Below are positions 2,681 through 13,469 of a stretch of DNA of 64,000 bases, in pieces. The position numbers were made by a program, and so were the translations under genes. How positions within the stretch are numbered: position 1 is the stretch's first letter; the number at the start of each line of letters is the position of its first letter. Source of the stretch: an uncultured Pelagibacteraceae bacterium (GTDB taxonomy: Bacteria; Pseudomonadota; Alphaproteobacteria; Pelagibacterales; Pelagibacteraceae). The notes below the pieces were generated by a model. That model did not search any database, was not told where the DNA came from, and worked only from the letters and a program-made list of their open reading frames with translations. The DNA is taken from positions 1 to 64,000 of the forward strand of contig CACJSJ010000004.1 in NCBI GenBank assembly GCA_902596045.1, read 5' to 3'.

Positions 2681-3430
2681 ATGGTCAAAAACACAAAAGT
2701 AAATGCTGCAATACTAATTATTGGAAATGAAATTCTTTCAGGAAGAACACAAGATACAAATACCAGTACTTTAGCTACTTGGTTAAATTCTATCGGGGTT
2801 ATAGTAAATGAAGTAAGGGTTATACCAGATATTGAAAAGACAATTGTTGAGACACTCAATGTTTTAAGAAAAGAAAATGATTATGTTTTCACTACTGGAG
2901 GTATTGGACCTACCCATGATGATATAACAGCACAATCAGTTTCAAAAGCATTTGGAATAAAATATGAAATTCATAAAGAAGCTTTCAAGATTTTAGAGGC
3001 ATATTATAAACCGGGTGAATTTAATGAAGGACGTCAAAAAATGGTGTGGATGCCAGAAAATGCAAAACTAATTTTAAATCCAACAAGTGGTGCTCCAGGA
3101 TTTAGTGTTGAAAATGTATTTTGTCTTCCAGGTGTTCCATCGATTTTAAAATCAATGTTGGGTGGTTTAAAAAATAGAATAGTGGGAGGGCAGCCAATTT
3201 TAAGTCACACTATCAGTTTAAGGACAGTTGAAAGTGAAATAGCAAACTCACTGACTAAAGTACAAGATCAAAATAAAGATGTAGAAATAGGAAGTTATCC
3301 ATTTTTCCACGCTGGTAAACTTGGAGTATCAATTGTTCTTAGGTCAGAAAATCAAAGTAAAATTGATAATTGCAATTCACAAATACTAAAGTTTATCAAA
3401 GAAAAAAAAATAGAAGTAGTAGATCGTTAA
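2681..3430 (+). CDS. molybdopterin-binding domain protein (CinA/MoaB-like)
   Basis: AAILIIGNEILSGRTQDTNTSTLA, TTGGIGPTHDDIT motifs. Confidence 0.88.
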   Translation: MVKNTKVNAAILIIGNEILSGRTQDTNTSTLATWLNSIGVIVNEVRVIPDIEKTIVETLNVLRKENDYVFTTGGIGPTHDDITAQSVSKAFGIKYEIHKEAFKILEAYYKPGEFNEGRQKMVWMPENAKLILNPTSGAPGFSVENVFCLPGVPSILKSMLGGLKNRIVGGQPILSHTISLRTVESEIANSLTKVQDQNKDVEIGSYPFFHAGKLGVSIVLRSENQSKIDNCNSQILKFIKEKKIEVVDR

Positions 3431-3859
3431 ATGCTATATTTTGCCTATGGTAGTAATCTTAATCATTTTCAAATGAAAAGAAGATGTAAAGATAGTTTTT
3501 TTTTAAAAAAAATGAATTTAAAAGGTTTTAGATTAACATTTAGGAGCAAATATAGAGCAGCAGATATAGAACCAAAAAGAAATTCAATAGTTCCTGGTGG
3601 GTTATTTGAAATTTCAAAAAGTGATGAAAAAAAACTTGATGTTTATGAAGATTATCCAGTTTTATATAAAAAATATTATTTTTTATATTATGGGAAAAAA
3701 GTTATGACTTATACCATGGTAAAAAAATCTACTTTTAAATATCCAACAGAAAAATATTTAAATGTGGTAAAACGTGGATATAAAGATTGCAATCTAGAAA
3801 AAAAATATCTAAAAAAAGCTTTAATCCCTCTCTATGATAAAAAATTTACAATGTCTTAG
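3431..3859 (+). CDS. gamma-glutamylcyclotransferase (AIG2-like) family protein
   Basis: MLYFAYGSNLNHFQMKRRC N-terminus, GGLFEI, YEDYPVLY. Confidence 0.8.
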   Translation: MLYFAYGSNLNHFQMKRRCKDSFFLKKMNLKGFRLTFRSKYRAADIEPKRNSIVPGGLFEISKSDEKKLDVYEDYPVLYKKYYFLYYGKKVMTYTMVKKSTFKYPTEKYLNVVKRGYKDCNLEKKYLKKALIPLYDKKFTMS

Positions 3860-4814
3860 AGCATTTGCTGCAATTAATGTTGTATATTTTCATACTTTAT
3901 TAGCAAGCGAAAGCTATGGTAAATCAGTAAGTATATTTTCAATAATTGGAACCTGGGGTCAAAACGGAGTAGATATTTTTTTTGTATTATCTGGATTTGT
4001 AATGATTCATACTCAAATACAAAACCCAAAAAAAATTCATGAATTTTATTTTTCTAGATTAAATAGAATAGTCCCTATATATTGGTTAATAACGTTATTT
4101 ATAGTATTAATTTATTTTTTATTACCCGATATATTTAGAAATTTAACTTTAGATATTAAAAAAATTATCTCATCATTATTTTTTACCTCACAAATAGTAA
4201 CAGGTGAATTTCCTATAATAATTGTTGGATGGACCCTCGAATGGGAAATGTTATTTTATTTTATATTTGGTTTAAGTCTTTTTTTAAAAGATATAAGGAA
4301 AATAATTGTCTTAATTTTTTTGTTTATGCTTTTAATTTTTACTTTTTCTAAAACACTTTTAATTTTTGAATTTTTTCTTGGAGTATTAATTGGATATACT
4401 TTTAATAAAGTAAAGTTTAGCGAGATAAATGGACTAATAATCCTAATTATCGGCATAATTTTATTGTTACTATCTATTAAATCAGGTTTTGATCCTCAAA
4501 AATACTTACTAGTTGCTGGTTTTAAGTTAGATCGTTTCTTTATTTGGGGTATTCCATCTGCATTTATAGTATTGGGTGCTGTTTATTATAGACAAATAAG
4601 TAATTCATTTTTAGTTTATCTAGGTAATGCATCATACAGTATTTATTTAGTACAGGTTCTGACTGTTCCTTTTTTTTATAAATTTATTACTTATTTTAAT
4701 ATAGATATGAATAGTAATTTATTAACAATACTTTGTTTATTTTTAAGTGTATCATTTGGATGTTTTTTTTATTCTTTAATTGAAAAAAACCTTAAAATCA
4801 AAAATAAAAGATAA
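3834..4814 (+). CDS. acyltransferase 3 family membrane protein
   Basis: LRAFAAINVVYFH, GVDIFFVLSGFVM, FYFSRLNRIVPIYWL motifs; multiple hydrophobic segments. Confidence 0.88.
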   Translation: MIKNLQCLRAFAAINVVYFHTLLASESYGKSVSIFSIIGTWGQNGVDIFFVLSGFVMIHTQIQNPKKIHEFYFSRLNRIVPIYWLITLFIVLIYFLLPDIFRNLTLDIKKIISSLFFTSQIVTGEFPIIIVGWTLEWEMLFYFIFGLSLFLKDIRKIIVLIFLFMLLIFTFSKTLLIFEFFLGVLIGYTFNKVKFSEINGLIILIIGIILLLLSIKSGFDPQKYLLVAGFKLDRFFIWGIPSAFIVLGAVYYRQISNSFLVYLGNASYSIYLVQVLTVPFFYKFITYFNIDMNSNLLTILCLFLSVSFGCFFYSLIEKNLKIKNKR

Positions 4815-4831
4815 AACAAAAAATTTATTAT

Positions 4832-5557
4832 ATGAAAAAAAAAAACATATTAATATTCATACCCGCCTACAACGTGGAAAAAAAAATTTATTCTGTTGTT
4901 TCAAGAATACCTAGTGATATTTTTGAAAAAAATACAATTCATTTATTAATAATTAATGATTTTTCATCAGATAAAACCAATTTAGAAATTGAACGTATAA
5001 AAAATGATTATAATTACAAAATAAATGTATTTAACTCTGACAAAAACTTAGGTTATGGAGGTGTTCAAAAATATGCATTTAATTATGCTATAAGTAACTC
5101 TTACGATTACATAATTATGCTTCATGGTGATGGACAATATTTGCCAGAAAAACTTCCAGATTTTATTAAAGAATTTAATGATGATAATTTAGATGGAGTT
5201 TTTGGTTCAAGAATGAAATCTTACTCTGGAGCACTGAAGGGTGGTATGCCCCTATATAAATTTCTAGGAAATATTGGATTAACTTTCATCCAAAATTTAA
5301 TTTTAGGGTCAAAAATGAGTGAATTTCATTCAGGATACAGATCATATAAAGTTGACAGTTTAAAGTTAATAGAATTCGACAAGATGGCTGATTATTATCA
5401 TTTTGATACGGAAATTATTATCGAATTCCTTAAAAAAAAACTTAATATTTTGGAGATACACATACCTACTTTTTATGGAGATGAAGTTTCTCATTTAAAG
5501 TCTGTTCCTTATGGATTAAAAGTATTATTGAGTACAATAAAGTCAAAATTCAAATAA
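4832..5557 (+). CDS. glycosyltransferase family 2 (dolichyl-phosphate mannosyltransferase-like)
   Basis: IFIPAYNVEKKI, DKNLGYGGVQKYAF, LHGDGQYLPEKLP. Confidence 0.88.
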   Translation: MKKKNILIFIPAYNVEKKIYSVVSRIPSDIFEKNTIHLLIINDFSSDKTNLEIERIKNDYNYKINVFNSDKNLGYGGVQKYAFNYAISNSYDYIIMLHGDGQYLPEKLPDFIKEFNDDNLDGVFGSRMKSYSGALKGGMPLYKFLGNIGLTFIQNLILGSKMSEFHSGYRSYKVDSLKLIEFDKMADYYHFDTEIIIEFLKKKLNILEIHIPTFYGDEVSHLKSVPYGLKVLLSTIKSKFK

Positions 5558-5563
5558 AATTTA

Positions 5564-6568
5564 ATGAAAATATTTATAACAGGTATAGCGGGATTTTTAG
5601 GGGCAAATTTAGCTGAATATTACATCAAAAAAAATTTTAAAGTTTCAGGATGTGATAATTTGATTGGCGGCACATTAGATAATATTGACAGAAATAAAGT
5701 TAACTTTTTTAAAGCTGATTGTGAAAATCTTAATGAAATGACAAAAATAATACGTGATGTAGATGTAGTTGTTCATACCGCCGCCTATCCACATGAAGGT
5801 CTTTCATCATTTTCTCCATACCTAATATGCAAAAGTAACTACATAGGATCTATATCTGTTTTTACAGCAGCGATTCAAAATAAAGTTAAAAGAATTGTTT
5901 ATTGTTCTTCAATGGCTAGATATGGTGATGTTAATCCTCCCTTCTTTGAAGAACAAAAAGTTAATCCGGTAGATCCTTATGGGGTTTCAAAATTAGCAGC
6001 AGAAAATACATTAAAAATTTTAGCAAACACTCATAATATAGAATATAATATTGCAGTTCCTCATAACATAATAGGTCCCAAGCAAAAGTATGATGATCCA
6101 TTTAGAAATGTAGTATCAATAATGACCAATCTAATATTACAAAAAAGAAAACCAATTATTTATGGTGATGGAGAGCAAACAAGAAATTTCTCTGATATTG
6201 ATGATTGTCTTTATTGCTTAGATAAATTGATTACTAGCAAAGAAATATTATCAGAAACATTTAACATAGGTCCTGATGAGGAAAGTATAAGCATTAATGA
6301 GTTGTACAAAATGCTTTGTAATAAATTACAATTTAACGAACCAGCACAATATGTTGAGGATAGACCAAATGAAGTTAAACATGCAGTATGTTCATCAGAT
6401 AAAGCTAGAAAATATTTGAACTATAAGACTTCTGTTAATTTAAGCGATGCTGTCGATAAGGTTATAAACTATATTAAGATTAAAGGTCCTAAAAAATTTG
6501 AATACAATTATAATTTGGAAATAGATAACAAATTAACACCTAAGACTTGGAAAAATAAAGAATTTTAA
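5564..6568 (+). CDS. NAD-dependent epimerase/dehydratase (SDR, UDP-glucose 4-epimerase-like)
   Basis: FITGIAGFLGANLAEYY, VVHTAAYPHEG, YGVSKLAAEN, GDGEQTRNFSDIDD. Confidence 0.9.
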   Translation: MKIFITGIAGFLGANLAEYYIKKNFKVSGCDNLIGGTLDNIDRNKVNFFKADCENLNEMTKIIRDVDVVVHTAAYPHEGLSSFSPYLICKSNYIGSISVFTAAIQNKVKRIVYCSSMARYGDVNPPFFEEQKVNPVDPYGVSKLAAENTLKILANTHNIEYNIAVPHNIIGPKQKYDDPFRNVVSIMTNLILQKRKPIIYGDGEQTRNFSDIDDCLYCLDKLITSKEILSETFNIGPDEESISINELYKMLCNKLQFNEPAQYVEDRPNEVKHAVCSSDKARKYLNYKTSVNLSDAVDKVINYIKIKGPKKFEYNYNLEIDNKLTPKTWKNKEF

Positions 6569-6569
6569 G

Positions 6570-6596
6570 AATTTTATTTATTACTCTTGTTCAATT
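6570..6596 (+). repeat. 27-bp repeat matching 11766-11792 (1 mismatch), left fragment of duplicated tRNA-Leu upstream region
   Basis: aattttatttattactcttgttcaatt vs aattttacttattactcttgttcaatt. Confidence 0.8.
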
Positions 6597-6644
6597 TCAA
6601 ATAAATGAATTATATTATATGAATTTAACATCTAGAGAATTACT

Positions 6645-7355
6645 CTATTTTTTTGCAAAGCATTTAGTTAGTCCGCAAATGGATATTAAATGATAGTTTT
6701 TTTTAGAAAAATAATCTTCCAATTCATTTAAAGGGAAATATCCGCTATTATCCTCAATAAGTATTATTTCAGGATCAATAATTTCTAAATTAGATGATTT
6801 AATAACCTCAAAGTCTTTACCTTCTATATCAATATTTAAAACATTAACTTTTCCAACTTTATTAAAAATATCATTAATATGAAAATTTTTTACATTAATT
6901 ATTTCATATTTACTTTTTCCTTTTGACTCAAAATATTCTGCGTGCTTTAAAGAAGTGGTGTCTATTAAGGAAAATGGAGATTTTCTTTTAAATTTATAAA
7001 CTTTTATAAATTCTTCATGTGAATTACTTACAGCCCCACAAATTGTTTTAACTCTATTTCCTCTAGAAAATCTAAACCATCTTAATCTTTTTTCATCTAG
7101 GTCGACACAATATCCACTAAAACCTTTCTGGTGTAATAAGTGTGTATTTGAAACCCATCTTGGATGAAAGGCACCTATATCTAAATATTTGCCTTTTTTT
7201 ATTTTTTTATAATCTAAATATTTTAGCAAAATTAAATCTTCACCAGATTGAGAGTACGAAATTTTGAAATGTCTAAATCCACCTAAATAAGAAATAAACT
7301 CAGATAATCTTTTTGGAAAAATAAAGTAAAATATATTTATTAAAAATTTAAACAT
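6645..7355 (-). CDS. FkbM family methyltransferase
   Basis: SQSGEDLILLKYL, KYLDIGAFHPRWVSNTHLLHQKGFSGYCVDLD, VNVLNIDIEGKDFEVI motifs. Confidence 0.88.
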   Translation of the reverse strand: MFKFLINIFYFIFPKRLSEFISYLGGFRHFKISYSQSGEDLILLKYLDYKKIKKGKYLDIGAFHPRWVSNTHLLHQKGFSGYCVDLDEKRLRWFRFSRGNRVKTICGAVSNSHEEFIKVYKFKRKSPFSLIDTTSLKHAEYFESKGKSKYEIINVKNFHINDIFNKVGKVNVLNIDIEGKDFEVIKSSNLEIIDPEIILIEDNSGYFPLNELEDYFSKKNYHLISICGLTKCFAKK

Positions 7356-7434
7356 TTTTATTAAGTTTGAGTTTGTAATTTATAGTTTAATATTAAGCTT
7401 ATAAATCTATATCAATTATACAAAGTAATGAAAA

Positions 7435-7517
7435 TCAATTATAAATATTAGCATAAAAACTCATGAAATTCATTAGTGCCCTTTTGGTGAAATTGATAGA
7501 CACAAAGGACTTAAAAT
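7435..7517 (+). repeat. 83-bp imperfect direct repeat of 11787-11869 (5 mismatches), left copy
   Basis: tcaattataaatattagcataaa[a/t]actcatgaaattcatt[a]... through gcccttttggtgaaattgatagacacaaaggacttaaaat. Confidence 0.92.
7478..7517 (+). pseudogene. truncated tRNA-Leu(UAA): 5' 40 nt only, ends in anticodon loop
   Basis: 37/40 identical to the 5' half of the intact tRNA-Leu at 11830; acceptor strand mutated; no 3' half present. Confidence 0.9.
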
Positions 7518-7519
7518 AT

Positions 7520-9241
7520 TTATCTGTTACTTAACCAAATTGCTTCGAAGGGTTTCAATACTAAAAGGTTATTTTTTATTTCAATTTTAGATCCAATTAA
7601 ATTATTCCAATTATGGTAAATTCTATTTAGGTTTACTGTTTGAAATTTTGATGACAAATTTGTAATACAAATTATGGTTTGTTTTTTATTAACACTTGTT
7701 CTTTTGAAAGAAAAAATTTTGGAGCCTAAGTTTACATTGTGTCTAGAAGCATTTGGATGAAATGCTTTTTGTTTTCCTTTGACACTTAGTAAAGTTGAAA
7801 TTTTCTGATAAAATATACTTTGTTTAGAATTTTTATCCTCAAGTTTTTTTATTATATTTTTATAATTCCATTTATATCTATTCACATCTCTATTATTTCC
7901 AGTTATTATATATTTAGCTTCATCATTAGATTTTCCAAACAAAGAATTAAAATATACAGCAGGGATTCCTTCAAAAGAAATCATAATTGAATGAGCAGAA
8001 ATATATCGTTCTAAAAAAAATTTTCCTTTTGGATCATAATCTGACTTTTTAAGTGCATCGAAAACAGTTATATTTGCCTCATAGACTTTTTTGGATTTAT
8101 TTTTAACTTTTCTATATGAAAATTTTGATCCATTTTTTTTTAATCTTTTAAGAAAATTGTTTAATATTTTTTTATTAAATATTCCTTCAGTAGGCCTAAT
8201 ACCAATTCCATCATGAGATGATATAAAATTTAAATAACAATTTCCTTTTTTTGTAATTGGAAGTTTTTTACTCCATTGATTCAAATAAGAACTATTTTCA
8301 AATAGAAAAGCATGAATTAACAACGGCGGGAGAGAGAAATTATAAATCCAATGAGCCTCATCACTTTTACCAAAATAACTTAAATTTTCTTTTTCGGGTA
8401 AATTTGTTTCTGTAACAATTGTAGTTTCTACATTTAAATAACTGCAAATTATTCTTAAAAGTTTTATTATTTCATGTGTTTGTTTTAAATTTATGCATTT
8501 TGTACCACTCTCTTTCCAAAGATATGCAATTGCATCCAACCTAAAAACAGTTATGCCATTATTAATAAGATTAATAATAATTTTTATAAATCTTAGTAAT
8601 ATAGATGGATTTTTGAAATTTAGATCTAATTGATCTGCACTAAACGTTCTCCAAAGATATTCTTTTTTATTAAAAATATTTATTCTTTTTAATAATCTAT
8701 GATCTCTTGGTCTTATTACTTTTGAAGTATCAAATTTAGAGTCTACGCTTAAAAAATAATCTTTGCCTGGTTTTTTATTTTTTAAATAGTTTTTAAACCA
8801 TAAACCTCTTGCCGATGAATGATTTATTACCACATCTGCCATAATATCATTTGATTTTGAGATTTTTTTTATATCAGACCAATTACCAAGTTTGTTTTCA
8901 ATTTTATAATGATCTTTTACAGCAAACCCACTATCACTACTTGAGGGATAAAAAGGTAAAAAATGAATTGTATTAAAATATTTTTTTAATTTTTTTTTAA
9001 AAAAAATCTGAAATACTTTAATTGAGCTTTTTTTATTTAAATATACACTGTCTCCATAACAGATTATTAGAGAAGTTTTTTCTGTAATATTTTTTTTTTT
9101 CTTTAAATTTTTTTTATTAAAATTCTTGATTATCTTAATTATTTCATTCTTAAAAATATTAATATTTTCGCTTGATAAAGATACTTTATAAATATTATCT
9201 AGTTTTGATCTTATCTTTTTCTGATCTTTTTGAGTTAACAT
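7520..9241 (-). CDS. GH13 sucrose-phosphorylase-like protein; candidate glucosylglycerate phosphorylase
   Basis: FLPFYPSSSDSGFAVKDH, DVVINHSS, GITVFRLDAIAYLWK, TETN, FISSHDGIGIRP motifs (GH13_18-like); context with GpgS and a HAD phosphatase. Confidence 0.82.
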   Translation of the reverse strand: MLTQKDQKKIRSKLDNIYKVSLSSENINIFKNEIIKIIKNFNKKNLKKKKNITEKTSLIICYGDSVYLNKKSSIKVFQIFFKKKLKKYFNTIHFLPFYPSSSDSGFAVKDHYKIENKLGNWSDIKKISKSNDIMADVVINHSSARGLWFKNYLKNKKPGKDYFLSVDSKFDTSKVIRPRDHRLLKRINIFNKKEYLWRTFSADQLDLNFKNPSILLRFIKIIINLINNGITVFRLDAIAYLWKESGTKCINLKQTHEIIKLLRIICSYLNVETTIVTETNLPEKENLSYFGKSDEAHWIYNFSLPPLLIHAFLFENSSYLNQWSKKLPITKKGNCYLNFISSHDGIGIRPTEGIFNKKILNNFLKRLKKNGSKFSYRKVKNKSKKVYEANITVFDALKKSDYDPKGKFFLERYISAHSIMISFEGIPAVYFNSLFGKSNDEAKYIITGNNRDVNRYKWNYKNIIKKLEDKNSKQSIFYQKISTLLSVKGKQKAFHPNASRHNVNLGSKIFSFKRTSVNKKQTIICITNLSSKFQTVNLNRIYHNWNNLIGSKIEIKNNLLVLKPFEAIWLSNR

Positions 9242-10461
9242 TAATAATATTTTTTATTATCATCATTAACTACTTTTTCAAGTCTTCCAAGAAAATCAGG
9301 TATAGCGCTTTTCACTCTACTCCATGTTGGTATAAATGGGGTATCCATAGGATTAAGAATAAAAGCCTCTCCAGCTTTCATTATGTTCATTGCAAATAAT
9401 TCAACTGCTTTTTCTTCGGTATGAGAGTCAAATTCCAAGCCATTCATATCGGCATCGCTCCTATATATATCAATTAAATCTAAAGCTGATCTATAATAAG
9501 TTGCTTTTAATGATCTAAACTTTTCTCTACTAAACGTATTACCTTGAGTTGCTAATTTTTTTATAAAAGTTTTGATGATATCGATAGACATCCTCGATAG
9601 TCCTTTGGTTTCATCATCAATTGACAATATCTGGTGTTTGTGATCATAAGTATCAGCTAAATCAACTTGGCAAATATTTTGAGGAGAAAAACTTCGTTGC
9701 ATTTCAGATAAAATTCCAACTTCAATTCCCCAGTCTGAAGATATTCTTAATTCAGGTAGAACATTTCGCCTAAACGAAAACTCACCAGCAAGAGGATATT
9801 TAAACGACTTCATAAATTCTAAATAATCACTATTGCCAATAGTTTTTTCTAATGCGGTTAGTAGTGGAAAAACCAACAACCTGGCCACTCTTCCATTCAT
9901 TTTTTCATCCGCTACTCTTGGATAATAACCTTTACAAAACTCAAAGTTAAATAGGGGATTTACAACTGGATAGAAGAGCTTGGCAAGCATTCTTCTATCA
10001 TATGTTTTAATATCACAGTCATGTAAAGCAACTGAACGAGCACTATCTCTTGCAATACACATTCCTATACAATACCAAACATTTCGACCCTTACCCAACT
10101 CACTTGGTGCAAGATTATTTTTTTTTAATTCTTGATCAAGTTTTTTTAATCCAGGTCCTTCATTCCACAAAAGAGAGAAGGGAGTTTTTAATTTTTTAAA
10201 AAATTTCCAAGCCTTTTTTGCTTGCGCTTCATTAGCTTTATCTAAACCAACAATAATATGATCTAAATATTTAGTTTTACTTATCTCATCTACAATTTTT
10301 GGCAAAGCTGATCCCTCTAGCTCAGAATAAAGACAAGGTAAAATCAACTCCATCTTTCTTTCTTTAGAGAATTTTAGTAAATCTTTTTCAATTTCACTCG
10401 TAGATTTAGTTCCGAAGTCATGTAAAGTTGATATTATTCCATTTTGAGAAAAATCACCCAT
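9241..10461 (-). CDS. glucosyl-3-phosphoglycerate synthase-like glycosyltransferase
   Basis: ELILPCLYSELEGSALPKIVDEI, KGRNVWYCIG, VALHDCDIKTYDRRMLAKL, FEFCKGYYPRV; GpgS-type GT. Confidence 0.85.
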   Translation of the reverse strand: MGDFSQNGIISTLHDFGTKSTSEIEKDLLKFSKERKMELILPCLYSELEGSALPKIVDEISKTKYLDHIIVGLDKANEAQAKKAWKFFKKLKTPFSLLWNEGPGLKKLDQELKKNNLAPSELGKGRNVWYCIGMCIARDSARSVALHDCDIKTYDRRMLAKLFYPVVNPLFNFEFCKGYYPRVADEKMNGRVARLLVFPLLTALEKTIGNSDYLEFMKSFKYPLAGEFSFRRNVLPELRISSDWGIEVGILSEMQRSFSPQNICQVDLADTYDHKHQILSIDDETKGLSRMSIDIIKTFIKKLATQGNTFSREKFRSLKATYYRSALDLIDIYRSDADMNGLEFDSHTEEKAVELFAMNIMKAGEAFILNPMDTPFIPTWSRVKSAIPDFLGRLEKVVNDDNKKYY

Positions 10462-10469
10462 TTTGAATT

Positions 10470-11267
10470 TTAGACATTATAATTTAATTTATCTAGAGCT
10501 TTTTTGATCACATCAGCCCAGCCTTCAGGGGATGGCTTATTTGAAAATATAAGATTATCAATATTTATTTGATCTAGTTTAAACTTGTCGTTAAAAACTA
10601 AGCAGGGGACATCACAACTTCTCAACATATCTAAGTCATTATAATTATCCCCAACGGCAATCGTTTTTATGTTTTTATTATTTTTTTTGAAAAATCTAAC
10701 AAAGACCTGAAGTGCTTTGGCCTTATTTACTTTATCAGTTAAATTAATTACCCTCCCACCTTCCTGTAATGCTAAACCTTTTTTTTTTACAATTGTAGAT
10801 AATTGTTTCATTTCACTTTTGGTTCCCTCAAATATAAAGGGAATAGAATATTTACGATCTAAAGCCATATTAAGTTTTTCATCTTCCAAACCAAAAATTA
10901 AGCTTTGTTTTTTCTTATCCATATTAGATAACCATTTACATTTATTTTGTAAATTTTCTGGAACTAACTTTTTAAAAATATTGATTAAATTATTTTTATC
11001 TTTACCTAAGATAAGTTCTTTTGGTAAATTAGGATTTAATAAATCTAAACCGTTTATAGTAGCTCCATTTTCTGTAATATATGGCAAATTTGAACCTAAT
11101 TCGTTGTTGAATTCTAAAATCTCTTTTTCAGTTTTGCTTGTATTAGGAATTATAAAAATACCCTTGGAAAGTAATTTTTTTATATAGTCTTTAATTCCAT
11201 CAAATTTAAAAGTATCTCTATGAAGAAGTGAACCATCAAGATCAGTAAATATTAAAATTTTTTGCAT
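10470..11267 (-). CDS. HAD family (mannosyl/glucosyl-3-phosphoglycerate phosphatase-like)
   Basis: IFTDLDGSLLHRDTF, IIPNTSKTEKEI, ITENGA, AVGDNYNDLDML. Confidence 0.85.
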   Translation of the reverse strand: MQKILIFTDLDGSLLHRDTFKFDGIKDYIKKLLSKGIFIIPNTSKTEKEILEFNNELGSNLPYITENGATINGLDLLNPNLPKELILGKDKNNLINIFKKLVPENLQNKCKWLSNMDKKKQSLIFGLEDEKLNMALDRKYSIPFIFEGTKSEMKQLSTIVKKKGLALQEGGRVINLTDKVNKAKALQVFVRFFKKNNKNIKTIAVGDNYNDLDMLRSCDVPCLVFNDKFKLDQINIDNLIFSNKPSPEGWADVIKKALDKLNYNV

Positions 11268-11321
11268 ATTTGATAACTATAAAATAATATTTTAAAATAA
11301 AAATGTACAAAAAAATTTTTA

Positions 11322-11465
11322 TCAGGTAAGAAGCGAAGTTTTTTTATCTTTTTTACTTTTTACTTCATTTTTTTGATCACAATATCTTTTAAAAGCATAA
11401 GCCGCTGATACACCACCAATTAGTACAAATGTTAATATCTTTAATTTAATGAGTGTTTTAATCAT
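11322..11465 (-). CDS. small hypothetical single-TM protein (47 aa)
   Basis: Manual translation MIKTLIKLKILTFVLIGGVSAAYAFKRYCDQKNEVKSKKDKKTSLLT; start overlaps stop of upstream ORF (ATGA). Confidence 0.55.
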   Translation of the reverse strand: MIKTLIKLKILTFVLIGGVSAAYAFKRYCDQKNEVKSKKDKKTSLLT

Positions 11466-11671
11466 GATTTAATATCAAACTTTTCTAGCAAGAAGTTGAT
11501 TACTAAATTGTAGAGAAATATAAAACAAAAAATATAGAATAGAAAAATTAATCCTTTAGAATTAAAGATGTATCCAGTTGAGGTTAAAAGCACAATAAAT
11601 ATGCTAATTGATAAAGCAAGCTTTGATTGTGCTTTTTTTTTTAAGTGAGATTTAACAATATCTTTTTTCAT
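11462..11671 (-). CDS. small hypothetical membrane protein (two TM segments)
   Basis: 69-aa ORF, two hydrophobic stretches, charged N-terminus. Confidence 0.6.
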   Translation of the reverse strand: MKKDIVKSHLKKKAQSKLALSISIFIVLLTSTGYIFNSKGLIFLFYIFCFIFLYNLVINFLLEKFDIKS

Positions 11672-11786
11672 TAGATATAATGATAATTATTAAAGATATT
11701 TATTCATCATTAATTTTGTCCTACTTAGACATTCAAACTGTTTATAAAATATTAAAATAAATAACAATTTTACTTATTACTCTTGT

Positions 11787-11869
11787 TCAATTATAAATAT
11801 TAGCATAAATACTCATGAAATTCATTAATGCCCTCGTGGTGAAATTGGTAGACACAAAGGACTTAAAAT
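11787..11869 (+). repeat. 83-bp imperfect direct repeat, right copy (tRNA-Leu upstream region + 5' half)
   Basis: Matches 7435-7517 with 5 mismatches. Confidence 0.92.
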
Positions 11870-11915
11870 CCTTGCCGCTTGCGGAGTGCCAGTTCGAGTC
11901 TGGCCGAGGGCACCA
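11830..11915 (+). tRNA. tRNA-Leu(TAA)
   Basis: GCCCTCG...CGAGGGCACCA acceptor pairing, variable arm, anticodon loop CTTAAAA. Confidence 0.95.
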
Positions 11916-11931
11916 ACATCATGGATAAAAA

Positions 11932-12690
11932 ATGAAGATCTACGAAAATTATATTGATCAACTTCGTGCAAATTCTAAAATAAAAACAGAATCACGATTT
12001 TCTGCAAATCAATTATTAGAAATGCACTTTGAGGCTTTTAAAAGAGACAAACCTATTATAGTTGAGCTTGGGGTAAATAGAGGTCAAAGCACTAGAGTTT
12101 TTTTAAATGCGATAGATAATAAAACAAATGCTAGGTTAATTTCTATTGATATCAATGACTGTAAAGATGCTGTAAAATCTACTAATTGGGAATTTGTTCA
12201 ACAAGACTCTATAGATATAGAATCATTATTATTAAAAAAACCAATCATAAAAGATGGAATTGATATTTTGTATGTCGACTCATTACATACCCAATCTCAT
12301 GTATTGAAAGAAGTTTATGGTTTTTTTCAATATGTAAAACCGGAGGGTGTTATATATTTTGATGATATAGACAGTGGACCTTATATGAGTGGACAAAGAA
12401 AAGACTCAGTAAGCAATGAAATAGCAAATAGAGATATATTTGATTTACTAGAGGCTATTTTTAGAGCAAATTATTCTTCATTAGATTTTTCTATAAATCG
12501 TGGATCAACTGGTTTAGCTAAATTTGTTAAGCGTTCTAAGTTGGGAGATAAGTTAAATTCTCCACTTTTTACTAAGAAGAGAAATTTTAAATTATTTTGG
12601 CGACTCTTAGAAATTCTTAAAATAAAAAAAACTCATCACCATAATAATTCTACAAATGAGAGTTTTTCGATTAATCCAAAAAATGATTAA
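11932..12690 (+). CDS. class I SAM-dependent methyltransferase / cephalosporin hydroxylase-like
   Basis: PIIVELGVNRGQSTRVFLNAID, DILYVDSLHTQSHVLKEV, IYFDDID. Confidence 0.72.
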   Translation: MKIYENYIDQLRANSKIKTESRFSANQLLEMHFEAFKRDKPIIVELGVNRGQSTRVFLNAIDNKTNARLISIDINDCKDAVKSTNWEFVQQDSIDIESLLLKKPIIKDGIDILYVDSLHTQSHVLKEVYGFFQYVKPEGVIYFDDIDSGPYMSGQRKDSVSNEIANRDIFDLLEAIFRANYSSLDFSINRGSTGLAKFVKRSKLGDKLNSPLFTKKRNFKLFWRLLEILKIKKTHHHNNSTNESFSINPKND

Positions 12691-12698
12691 TATTAGCA

Positions 12699-13469
12699 AT
12701 GAATAAATTTATTATTATTTCTGACAAAAATAAAAAATCTTTAAAGATTAAGTCATTTCTTTTAAAAAAAATTAGACTAAATTCTTTAATTCGATCAAAT
12801 TTAGTTGTTGTTATAGGGGGAGATGGTTTTATGCTTCAGACTTTGAAAAAGAATAGAAGATCAAATAAAGAATTTTACGGAATTAATTCTGGAAATTATG
12901 GTTTTCTAATGAATAAATTTTCACAAAAAAATATTATTAAAAATTTATTAAAGGCAAATGTTGTTTCAATTTCACCCTTAGAAATGATTGTAAAAAATAA
13001 AAATAATCAAATAAAAAAATCTATAGCTATTAATGAAGTATCAATATTAAGACAAAGTAGACAAGCAGCTTCATTATCCATTAAACAAGACTCTAAAATA
13101 ATTATAAAAAAATTGGTCTCAGACGGTGTATTAGTTTCAACACCAGCCGGAAGTACAGCATACAATTTATCAGTTCATGGACCTATTTTAAGCTTACATT
13201 CAAAAAAGTTATCCATATCCCCAATAAGCGCATTTAGACCAAGAAGATGGAAAGGTAAAATTATTAATGATGGATCTAAAATTACTATTACAAATTTAAA
13301 TTCAATTAAAAGACCTATAAGCGCCGTTGCTGATAATCAAGAAGTTAGAAATGCTAAAAGTATTGTTATTAGAAAACATAAAAATATAAAATTTAATTTA
13401 TTATATGATAGAAACAGAAGCCTTCAAAACAAAATTAAAATTGAACAATTAAAAAAAGAAATTAAGTAA
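12699..13469 (+). CDS. nadK: NAD kinase
   Basis: VVVIGGDGFMLQTLKK, GINSGNYGFLMN, STPAGSTAYNLSVHGPIL. Confidence 0.93.
   Translation: MNKFIIISDKNKKSLKIKSFLLKKIRLNSLIRSNLVVVIGGDGFMLQTLKKNRRSNKEFYGINSGNYGFLMNKFSQKNIIKNLLKANVVSISPLEMIVKNKNNQIKKSIAINEVSILRQSRQAASLSIKQDSKIIIKKLVSDGVLVSTPAGSTAYNLSVHGPILSLHSKKLSISPISAFRPRRWKGKIINDGSKITITNLNSIKRPISAVADNQEVRNAKSIVIRKHKNIKFNLLYDRNRSLQNKIKIEQLKKEIK

Follow-up and report, generated by a model that had tools for sequence, protein, structure and literature searches.

Half-tRNA repeats and gene cassettes at tRNA-Leu(UAA) of Pelagibacteraceae: a probable recurrent site-specific cassette system in SAR11

Introduction

SAR11 genomes (Pelagibacteraceae) are small, with sparse integrases and mobile elements, yet they vary widely in gene content, and the route by which they gain one to a few genes is unclear. 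We investigated a locus that raises this question in a 64,000-nucleotide stretch of an uncultured Pelagibacteraceae genome (contig CACJSJ010000004.1; this whole stretch is hereafter called the window). The upstream region and 5' half of a tRNA-Leu(UAA) gene occur here twice, as direct repeats on either side of a cassette of three genes: a GH13 sucrose-phosphorylase-like gene, a glucosyl-3-phosphoglycerate synthase (GpgS)-like gene and a gene for an MPGP-type phosphatase. How did these genes come to lie between a dead half and an intact copy of a tRNA gene? A sequence-only reading of the window had proposed integration at the tRNA gene, and had named a decayed element, a satellite mobilised in trans and a recombination-generated duplication as possible origins. 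We consider it highly probable that the locus is a site-specific cassette insertion in the anticodon loop of tRNA-Leu(UAA), and one case of a recurrent SAR11 cassette system.

Results

Displaced tRNA half in the window and the same site in relatives

The repeats at 7435-7517 and 11787-11869 (offset 4352) were identical at 78 of 83 positions, with mismatches at 7458, 7476, 7483, 7484 and 7496, and a search of the same genome with 11700-11930 as the query recovered the left copy at E = 7e-31, bearing out the 83-bp direct repeats with five mismatches that had been described. Neither ARAGORN nor Rfam called the left copy as a tRNA; it ends at the anticodon loop, 2 bp before the stop codon of the minus-strand GH13 gene (7520-9241), and is thus the dead fragment that the sequence-only reading took it for. 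Repeat finding and the own-genome search revealed a third fragment (6566-6603) directly after the epimerase stop codon, matching the upstream part of the tRNA region that is absent from the left copy. Because the pieces are contiguous in a relative (G361), 6566-6592 and 7435-7517 are read as one attachment (att) copy, split by a later insertion with an FkbM-type methyltransferase gene. This insertion was considered as a second half-tRNA cassette and rejected, as it lies within the att copy and lacks a half tRNA of its own. Elsewhere in the same genome (locus L006), two tRNA-Leu upstream motifs lacking a tRNA lie about 1.1 kb apart (G000:C2:107467-107517 and 108555-108601).

Relatives were located by a search with the end of the epimerase gene. 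In G132 (L225, L235), the gene order cinA-AIG2-GT2-epimerase is followed about 100 bp on by an intact tRNA-Leu and then by the NAD kinase gene, with no cassette; this is the empty site predicted from integration at the tRNA gene, which it supports. In G361 (L223, L234), the same epimerase is followed at once by the promoter and tRNA 5' half, a different cassette (its first gene, as read from the sequence, is MORN-repeat protein-like) and an intact tRNA further on.

Half copies throughout the genus

We searched 121 genomes of the genus with 11760-11915 as the query. The tRNA region was found in 85 of the 121. In about 40 of these, one to three additional partial copies lay upstream in the same orientation, and most covered query positions 4 to 109-115. 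Other cargo is present at the tRNA-Leu site in such arrays and in G361, which the sequence-only reading had suggested looking for. When 51 partial copies were compared with the intact tRNA of their own genome, identity was 92-100% over tRNA positions 1-39 and fell to 29% at position 40 and 35% at position 41; beyond this, it matched the background of unrelated sequence. This sharp drop after position 39, at the edge of the anticodon loop, places the fragment end at a recognised crossover subsite, and a 5' fragment upstream of the intact gene on the same strand has the configuration and orientation of an island. The half copies begin about 67 bp upstream of the tRNA, and this upstream block of about 67 bp is present in half and full copies alike. 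The earlier proposal that the element supplied a replacement 5' half and upstream region is borne out by the common end base of these half copies, and by 18 other cassettes that have empty-site relatives (see below).

The same pattern occurred in other genera and in single-contig genomes; arrays were present in the single-contig G298 and G385 and in the near-complete G155. At least 120 stretches in the named genome collection match the junction pattern and, among those listed, all but one belong to Pelagibacteraceae/Pelagibacterales; 139 distinct junctions were collected in all. Displaced 3' halves of tRNA-Leu, the opposite and usual geometry, were seen at L100 (6100-6155), L101 (5395-5450) and L071 (6150-6205), the last beside an integrase gene.

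Arms, tags and cargo of the cassettes

In most cassettes, the loop CTTAAAA leads into one of a few arms (GCCGAGGGAT.., AACATAGGGT.., TAGTTTGAAT..). This arm (B' arm) is followed by three 10-bp repeats starting AGTC and then by the motif CCTATAAAATCC, whose inverse, TATAGGATTTTATAGGA, stands at the right end about 50 bp before the promoter block. Arm repeats were present in 114 of the 139 junctions, and the right-end motif in 37 of the 121 genomes (reversed control, 0). Arm-bearing cassettes have complete att arms at both ends and no recombinase; the complete ones have a median length of 1.9 kb.

Both ends of a cassette also carry a tag, a pair of repeats 11 bp apart, which varies among cassettes (ACCAGCAC, CTAGAAAC, ACTTGTAC, CTCGTACA and others) and agrees within one. 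Left and right tags of the same cassette matched at 16.6 of 18 bases, against 14.0 for other pairs, and the observed sum was reached in none of 10,000 permutations. We rejected target-site duplications as the nature of the tags, given four concerted copies per cassette, a fixed 11-bp spacing and a common motif; protein-binding sites, either arm-type sites or replication iterons, would fit better. One element of 161 bp (L042, 4206-4560, flipped locus) consists of a left arm and one tag pair with no cargo, and looks like the product of cargo loss via recombination between two tags.

The cargo is host-type and very diverse. Cassette proteins fell into 162 clusters, 128 of them singletons, and 188 of 198 open reading frames (ORFs) of at least 100 amino acids lay on the strand of the tRNA (10 on the other). 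Cargo includes type I restriction-modification, a HalD-like protein, class II aldolase, FrhB, M16 peptidase and an Mrr-type nuclease, together with EamA and MFS transporters, DHQ synthase and an autotransporter. L019 (3870-9448) has eleven pilin-like genes in a row in one cassette, and similar genes occur in several others. A cargo protein in L024 (3846-6002, minus strand) combines a caspase domain with an OpuAC domain of the glycine-betaine-binding type. The closed genome G385 (808503-823629; L086/L087) holds a 15-kb element between half copies with AGTC arms, in which five proteins tested against Pfam and three against PHROGs gave no clear assignment.

Movement between genomes

For 18 of the 79 youngest cassettes, another genome had the empty site, aligning without a break over several hundred bases to each side of the restored tRNA. 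Cassettes have also passed between species: some showed 97-99% identity between genomes that were 68-81% identical in the neighbouring NAD kinase gene, a yardstick that may itself be exchanged by recombination.

Candidate sources of recombinase

A PF00589 search of the 121 genomes found an integrase within the array in G120 alone, and later ones were met in G168 and G202. Three integrase-bearing elements of 7.7-10 kb lie at the same tRNA, between a half copy and the full gene (L041, L081, L083). In each, the left junction is followed at once by the gene of an integrase of about 520-550 amino acids. A primase-type protein of about 760 amino acids (AEP and DUF5906 domains in L041 and L081, a PHROG primase in L083) is encoded as well, along with small ORFs; capsid genes were seen in none of the three. 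Integrase and replication genes without capsid genes are the content of phage satellites. The integrases of L041 and L081 are 49% identical. Two of the satellites, L041 and L081, have arms and tags in common with cassettes. L041 has the same AGTC arm, and its tag (ACCAGCAC) recurs in 11 cassettes; the tag of L081 (CTAGAAAC) recurs in 6, and L083 has a different arm and a different tag. From these shared arms and tags we infer that satellite integrases move cassettes in trans. Relatives of the L041 integrase were found neither in the IMG/VR search nor in phage records.

In the pelagiphages HTVC105P, HTVC109P and S35C6, this tRNA-Leu 5' half lies next to the integrase, and the arms are different; similarity between the HTVC105P integrase and that of the satellite is limited to a short weak match.

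Further targets

Several hits of the right-end motif away from tRNA-Leu led to the 5' end of a gene for a 75-amino-acid protein. At L239 (G044:C1:3000-13000), a 3.9-kb cassette (3036-7093) lies between a 5' fragment and the full copy of this gene, with the promoter and first codons replaced. Fragments of the gene were present in about 15 of the 121 genomes, nearly all ending at query position 138-140. A related integrase satellite occupies tRNA-Ser(UGA) in L082 (G326:C2), with the 5' half repeated, the crossover at the anticodon loop and the tag ACTTGAGAC at both ends, and the right end of a cassette lies at tRNA-Ser(UGA) in L243 (G008:C2). Because the L239 cassette and these gene fragments stand beside the tRNA cases, replacement of the promoter and 5' end is a design at three kinds of target: tRNA-Leu, tRNA-Ser(UGA) and the gene for the 75-amino-acid protein.

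Genes of the window locus

Features of the locus are collected in Table 1. The product of the GH13 gene is likely a glucosylglycerate phosphorylase, a substrate taken from gene context, and the family assignments would imply that the cassette serves both glucosylglycerate synthesis (GpgS and the phosphatase) and its phosphorolytic use (GH13). In most relatives the NAD kinase gene starts 1-9 nt after the tRNA; because a methyltransferase gene parts the two in the window genome, a second insertion is placed on the 3' side of its tRNA.

Table 1 Features of the tRNA-Leu(UAA) locus in the window.
Feature	Position	Strand	Basis
NAD-dependent epimerase, left flank	5564..6568	+	Pfam PF01370
Displaced att copy, left part (upstream/promoter region of tRNA-Leu)	6566..6592	+	Repeat finding, own-genome search, G361 alignment
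Later insertion within displaced att copy	6593..7434		TCAATT at both sides; halves contiguous in G361
FkbM-type methyltransferase, cargo of later insertion	6645..7355	-	Pfam PF05050
Displaced att copy, right part (attL side): upstream region and tRNA-Leu 5' half, ending in loop CTTAAAA	7435..7517	+	
GH13 sucrose-phosphorylase-like gene	7520..9241	-	Pfam PF00128; TIGR03852 below cut-off
GpgS-like gene	9241..10461	-	NF040724 E = 5e-106, below cut-off
MPGP-family HAD phosphatase	10470..11267	-	TIGR01486 above cut-off
Short conserved segments, roughly two small ORFs with approximate limits, cassette right end	11330..11690	-	tblastx matches in L008, L109; 69-amino-acid ORF
Putative replacement tRNA-Leu promoter region brought by the element	11760..11829	+	TTGTTC about 17 bp before TAAATA; conserved upstream block of about 67 bp
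Intact tRNA-Leu(UAA)	11830..11915	+	ARAGORN (anticodon TAA); Rfam E = 6e-11; crossover inside anticodon loop CTTAAAA per boundary profile
Methyltransferase between tRNA-Leu and NAD kinase	11932..12690	+	Pfam PF13578
NAD kinase, conserved right neighbour, host yardstick	12699..13469	+	NF003406 above cut-off

Discussion

Proposed mechanism

We propose that the element is a circle-competent unit whose att site would consist of the tRNA-Leu promoter and 5' half, the 7-bp loop CTTAAAA and an element-specific arm. A tyrosine integrase would cross over within the anticodon loop. This would leave the resident promoter and 5' half as a dead fragment upstream of the cargo, while the promoter and 5' half that arrive with the element would complete the tRNA again. 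Each later insertion into the restored gene would add a cassette to the stack, with the youngest beside the tRNA. Most cassettes hold host-type cargo, lack an integrase and keep their att arms (10-bp repeats, inverted motif and an 11-bp-spaced tag pair at both ends), so that they could be mobilised in trans. The integrase would come from a different element, in the likeliest case a satellite that occupies the same tRNA and matches in arms and tag.

Several observations weigh against this reading. Neither an excised circle nor cross-mobilisation was observed, and a scan of viral contigs (IMG/VR) for the junction pattern gave no match. Few genomes hold an integrase satellite of this family (6 of 399, with 3 at tRNA-Leu). 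Dead halves were not significantly more mutated with distance from the tRNA (Spearman 0.07, p = 0.56), so the stacking order is drawn from the empty-site comparisons. No integrase was met in Pfam and profile searches of the window's proteins, nor by Pfam in its own genome (87% complete), in agreement with the absence noted before. Finally, AGTC arms and tags are not present in the window's glucosylglycerate cassette, which is 78% identical to those of L009, L022 and L090, not above the NAD kinase identity.

The last point concerns the window's own cassette. Without arms or tags, and no closer to its relatives than NAD kinase, it is a long-standing insertion made in the same way, or else one with a lost left end, and its recent mobility is unproven. 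Its GH13 junction recurs in L172 and, in another genus, L096. Cassettes in L009, L022, L027, L036 and L090 hold a two-gene GpgS-MPGP version, and their loop is followed by TCCT or similar; in many other relatives, these genes adjoin the tRNA-Leu region with no left half copy. GpgS of the window is 91-95% identical to that of several relatives whose GH13 and MPGP proteins reach just 60-79%, suggesting a mosaic or a strong constraint. Among the origins first named for the window repeat, a satellite acting in trans is now the best supported for the arm-bearing majority of cassettes; for the window cassette, an old or decayed element is equally possible.

Alternative explanations

The closest competing account concerns the helper, which could be a pelagiphage integrase (HTVC019P-like podoviruses) in place of a satellite integrase. 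HTVC105P, HTVC109P and S35C6 do carry an integrase followed by the same tRNA-Leu 5' half, and the two-gene glucosylglycerate cassettes have TCCT after the loop, like phage attP; however, the AGTC repeats and tags common to cassettes and satellites are missing from the att region of the phages, and similarity between the phage and satellite integrases is limited to a short weak match. We therefore regard a phage helper as unlikely. An improbable account accepts the site-specific insertions and treats the integrase-less cassettes as decayed remnants, immobile as units and shared between species by homologous recombination across tRNA halves and flanks. The lack of any integrase in most cassettes, the lost arms of the window cassette and the G118 case, where the right end of one cassette is fused to the cargo of another, are what it would predict, and half copies would offer natural homology for RecA exchange. 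Yet decay would scramble arms and tags, which are found in 114 of 139 junctions and in matching pairs, respectively, with cargo that is very diverse and host-type and does not consist of phage or satellite leftovers.

For the window repeat by itself, a duplication of the tRNA region by recombination, with no integrase, would suit a cassette that has no arms and relatives in which GpgS and MPGP genes lie next to tRNA-Leu with no left half copy. We hold it very improbable, since the left copy shares its end base with the other half copies, the cassette's GH13 junction is met again in L172 and in a second genus (L096), and the site is empty in G132. Chance similarity or an assembly artefact might be suspected in an AT-rich genome, many of the records being single-cell or metagenome assemblies; with a repeat at E = 7e-31 and arrays in single-contig G298 and G385 and near-complete G155, its probability is negligible and we rejected it.

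Comparison with known systems

Islands at tRNA genes, additive cassette islands of pelagic bacteria, satellites and trans-mobilised elements are known kinds. As in Islander-type islands (PMC4383910), a tRNA gene and a displaced fragment bracket the SAR11 cassettes, the crossover lies in the anticodon loop and the tRNA is rebuilt by the element; unlike them, the SAR11 fragment is the 5' one, most units have no integrase and many are below 2 kb. Islander requires an integrase and rejects units below 2 kb; it reported 5' fragments in 159 of 3919 islands, and tandems of three or more 4 times in 2168 genomes (PMC4383910). By its terms, the window has the tRNA gene with its fragment, the crossover subsite and the empty site, and no integrase was met in the interval or in its genome.

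Small cassettes at tRNA genes of streamlined pelagic bacteria, leaving tRNA-fragment repeats, are also described as additive flexible genomic islands (fGIs) of Ca. Actinomarinales (PMC7771536) and as fGI-2 of Methylophilaceae, whose repeats are the last 20 bp of tRNA-Lys (PMC10872708). SAR11 differs in exchanging the promoter and 5' half and in having identified arms, tags and candidate helpers; the available portions of those two papers (PMC7771536, PMC10872708) report no shared arms, tags or helper. Tycheposons are likewise tRNA-bordered cargo elements of marine bacteria with a tyrosine recombinase and satellite-like members. They are given in PMC10872708 as elements of 4-200 kb with a recombinase, whereas SAR11 cassettes are mostly 1-3 kb and without one. 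The window's element has the tRNA border and no tyrosine recombinase; the three satellites L041, L081 and L083 do carry one. These satellites resemble phage satellites such as phage-inducible chromosomal minimalist islands (PICMI) and virion-encapsidated integrative mobilisable elements (VEIME) in having an integrase, a primase-helicase and small ORFs with no capsid genes seen; the cassettes themselves carry no satellite genes. The attP of pelagiphages contains a related tRNA-Leu fragment (PMC3861242), and HTVC105P and HTVC109P carry, next to an integrase, the same tRNA-Leu 5' half as the cassettes, and so have the same insertion geometry. They differ in their arms, in their integrase and in having a full phage genome.

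Stacking without a recombinase has precedents as well. In the accretion-mobilisation model, cis-mobilisable elements (CIMEs) are stacked units between att sites that have no recombinase of their own and are moved by that of another element. The clusters of attC sites lacking integrases (CALINs) of integrons are likewise stacked and moved by another element's recombinase (PMC11389934). SAR11 cassettes, too, are stacked between att sites without a recombinase; complete arms at both ends are found in the arm-bearing cassettes and not in the window's. Unlike in CIMEs and CALINs, the SAR11 att site is a tRNA half with a promoter and not an attC hairpin (judged by the junctions, with no attC model or IntI search), and no conjugation genes were seen. 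To our knowledge, matched tag pairs do not occur in CIMEs or CALINs. A literature search of incomplete coverage met no description of the SAR11 system, of promoter and 5' half exchange on such a scale, or of cassette-specific matched tags that also occur in integrase-bearing elements; we claim no priority.

Implications

Tentatively, we envisage a dispersed, integron-like economy in which SAR11 would share host-type genes on minimal attP modules and rare satellites would serve many cassettes, with the 11-bp-spaced tags deciding which helper pairs with which cassette. Each insertion would reissue the tRNA promoter while the old one, left behind, would transcribe the cargo, and the same design would operate at tRNA-Ser(UGA) and at the gene for the 75-amino-acid protein. 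Apart from this wider picture, the cassette system means that mobile DNA repeatedly replaces the promoter of a tRNA gene, and its tag grammar allows helper-cassette pairs to be predicted at the level of sequence. Standard island finders would miss such a system by design. A defined cassette system whose entry points are fixed, whose ends can be recognised and for which there are candidate helpers makes the route of gene gain in SAR11 testable.

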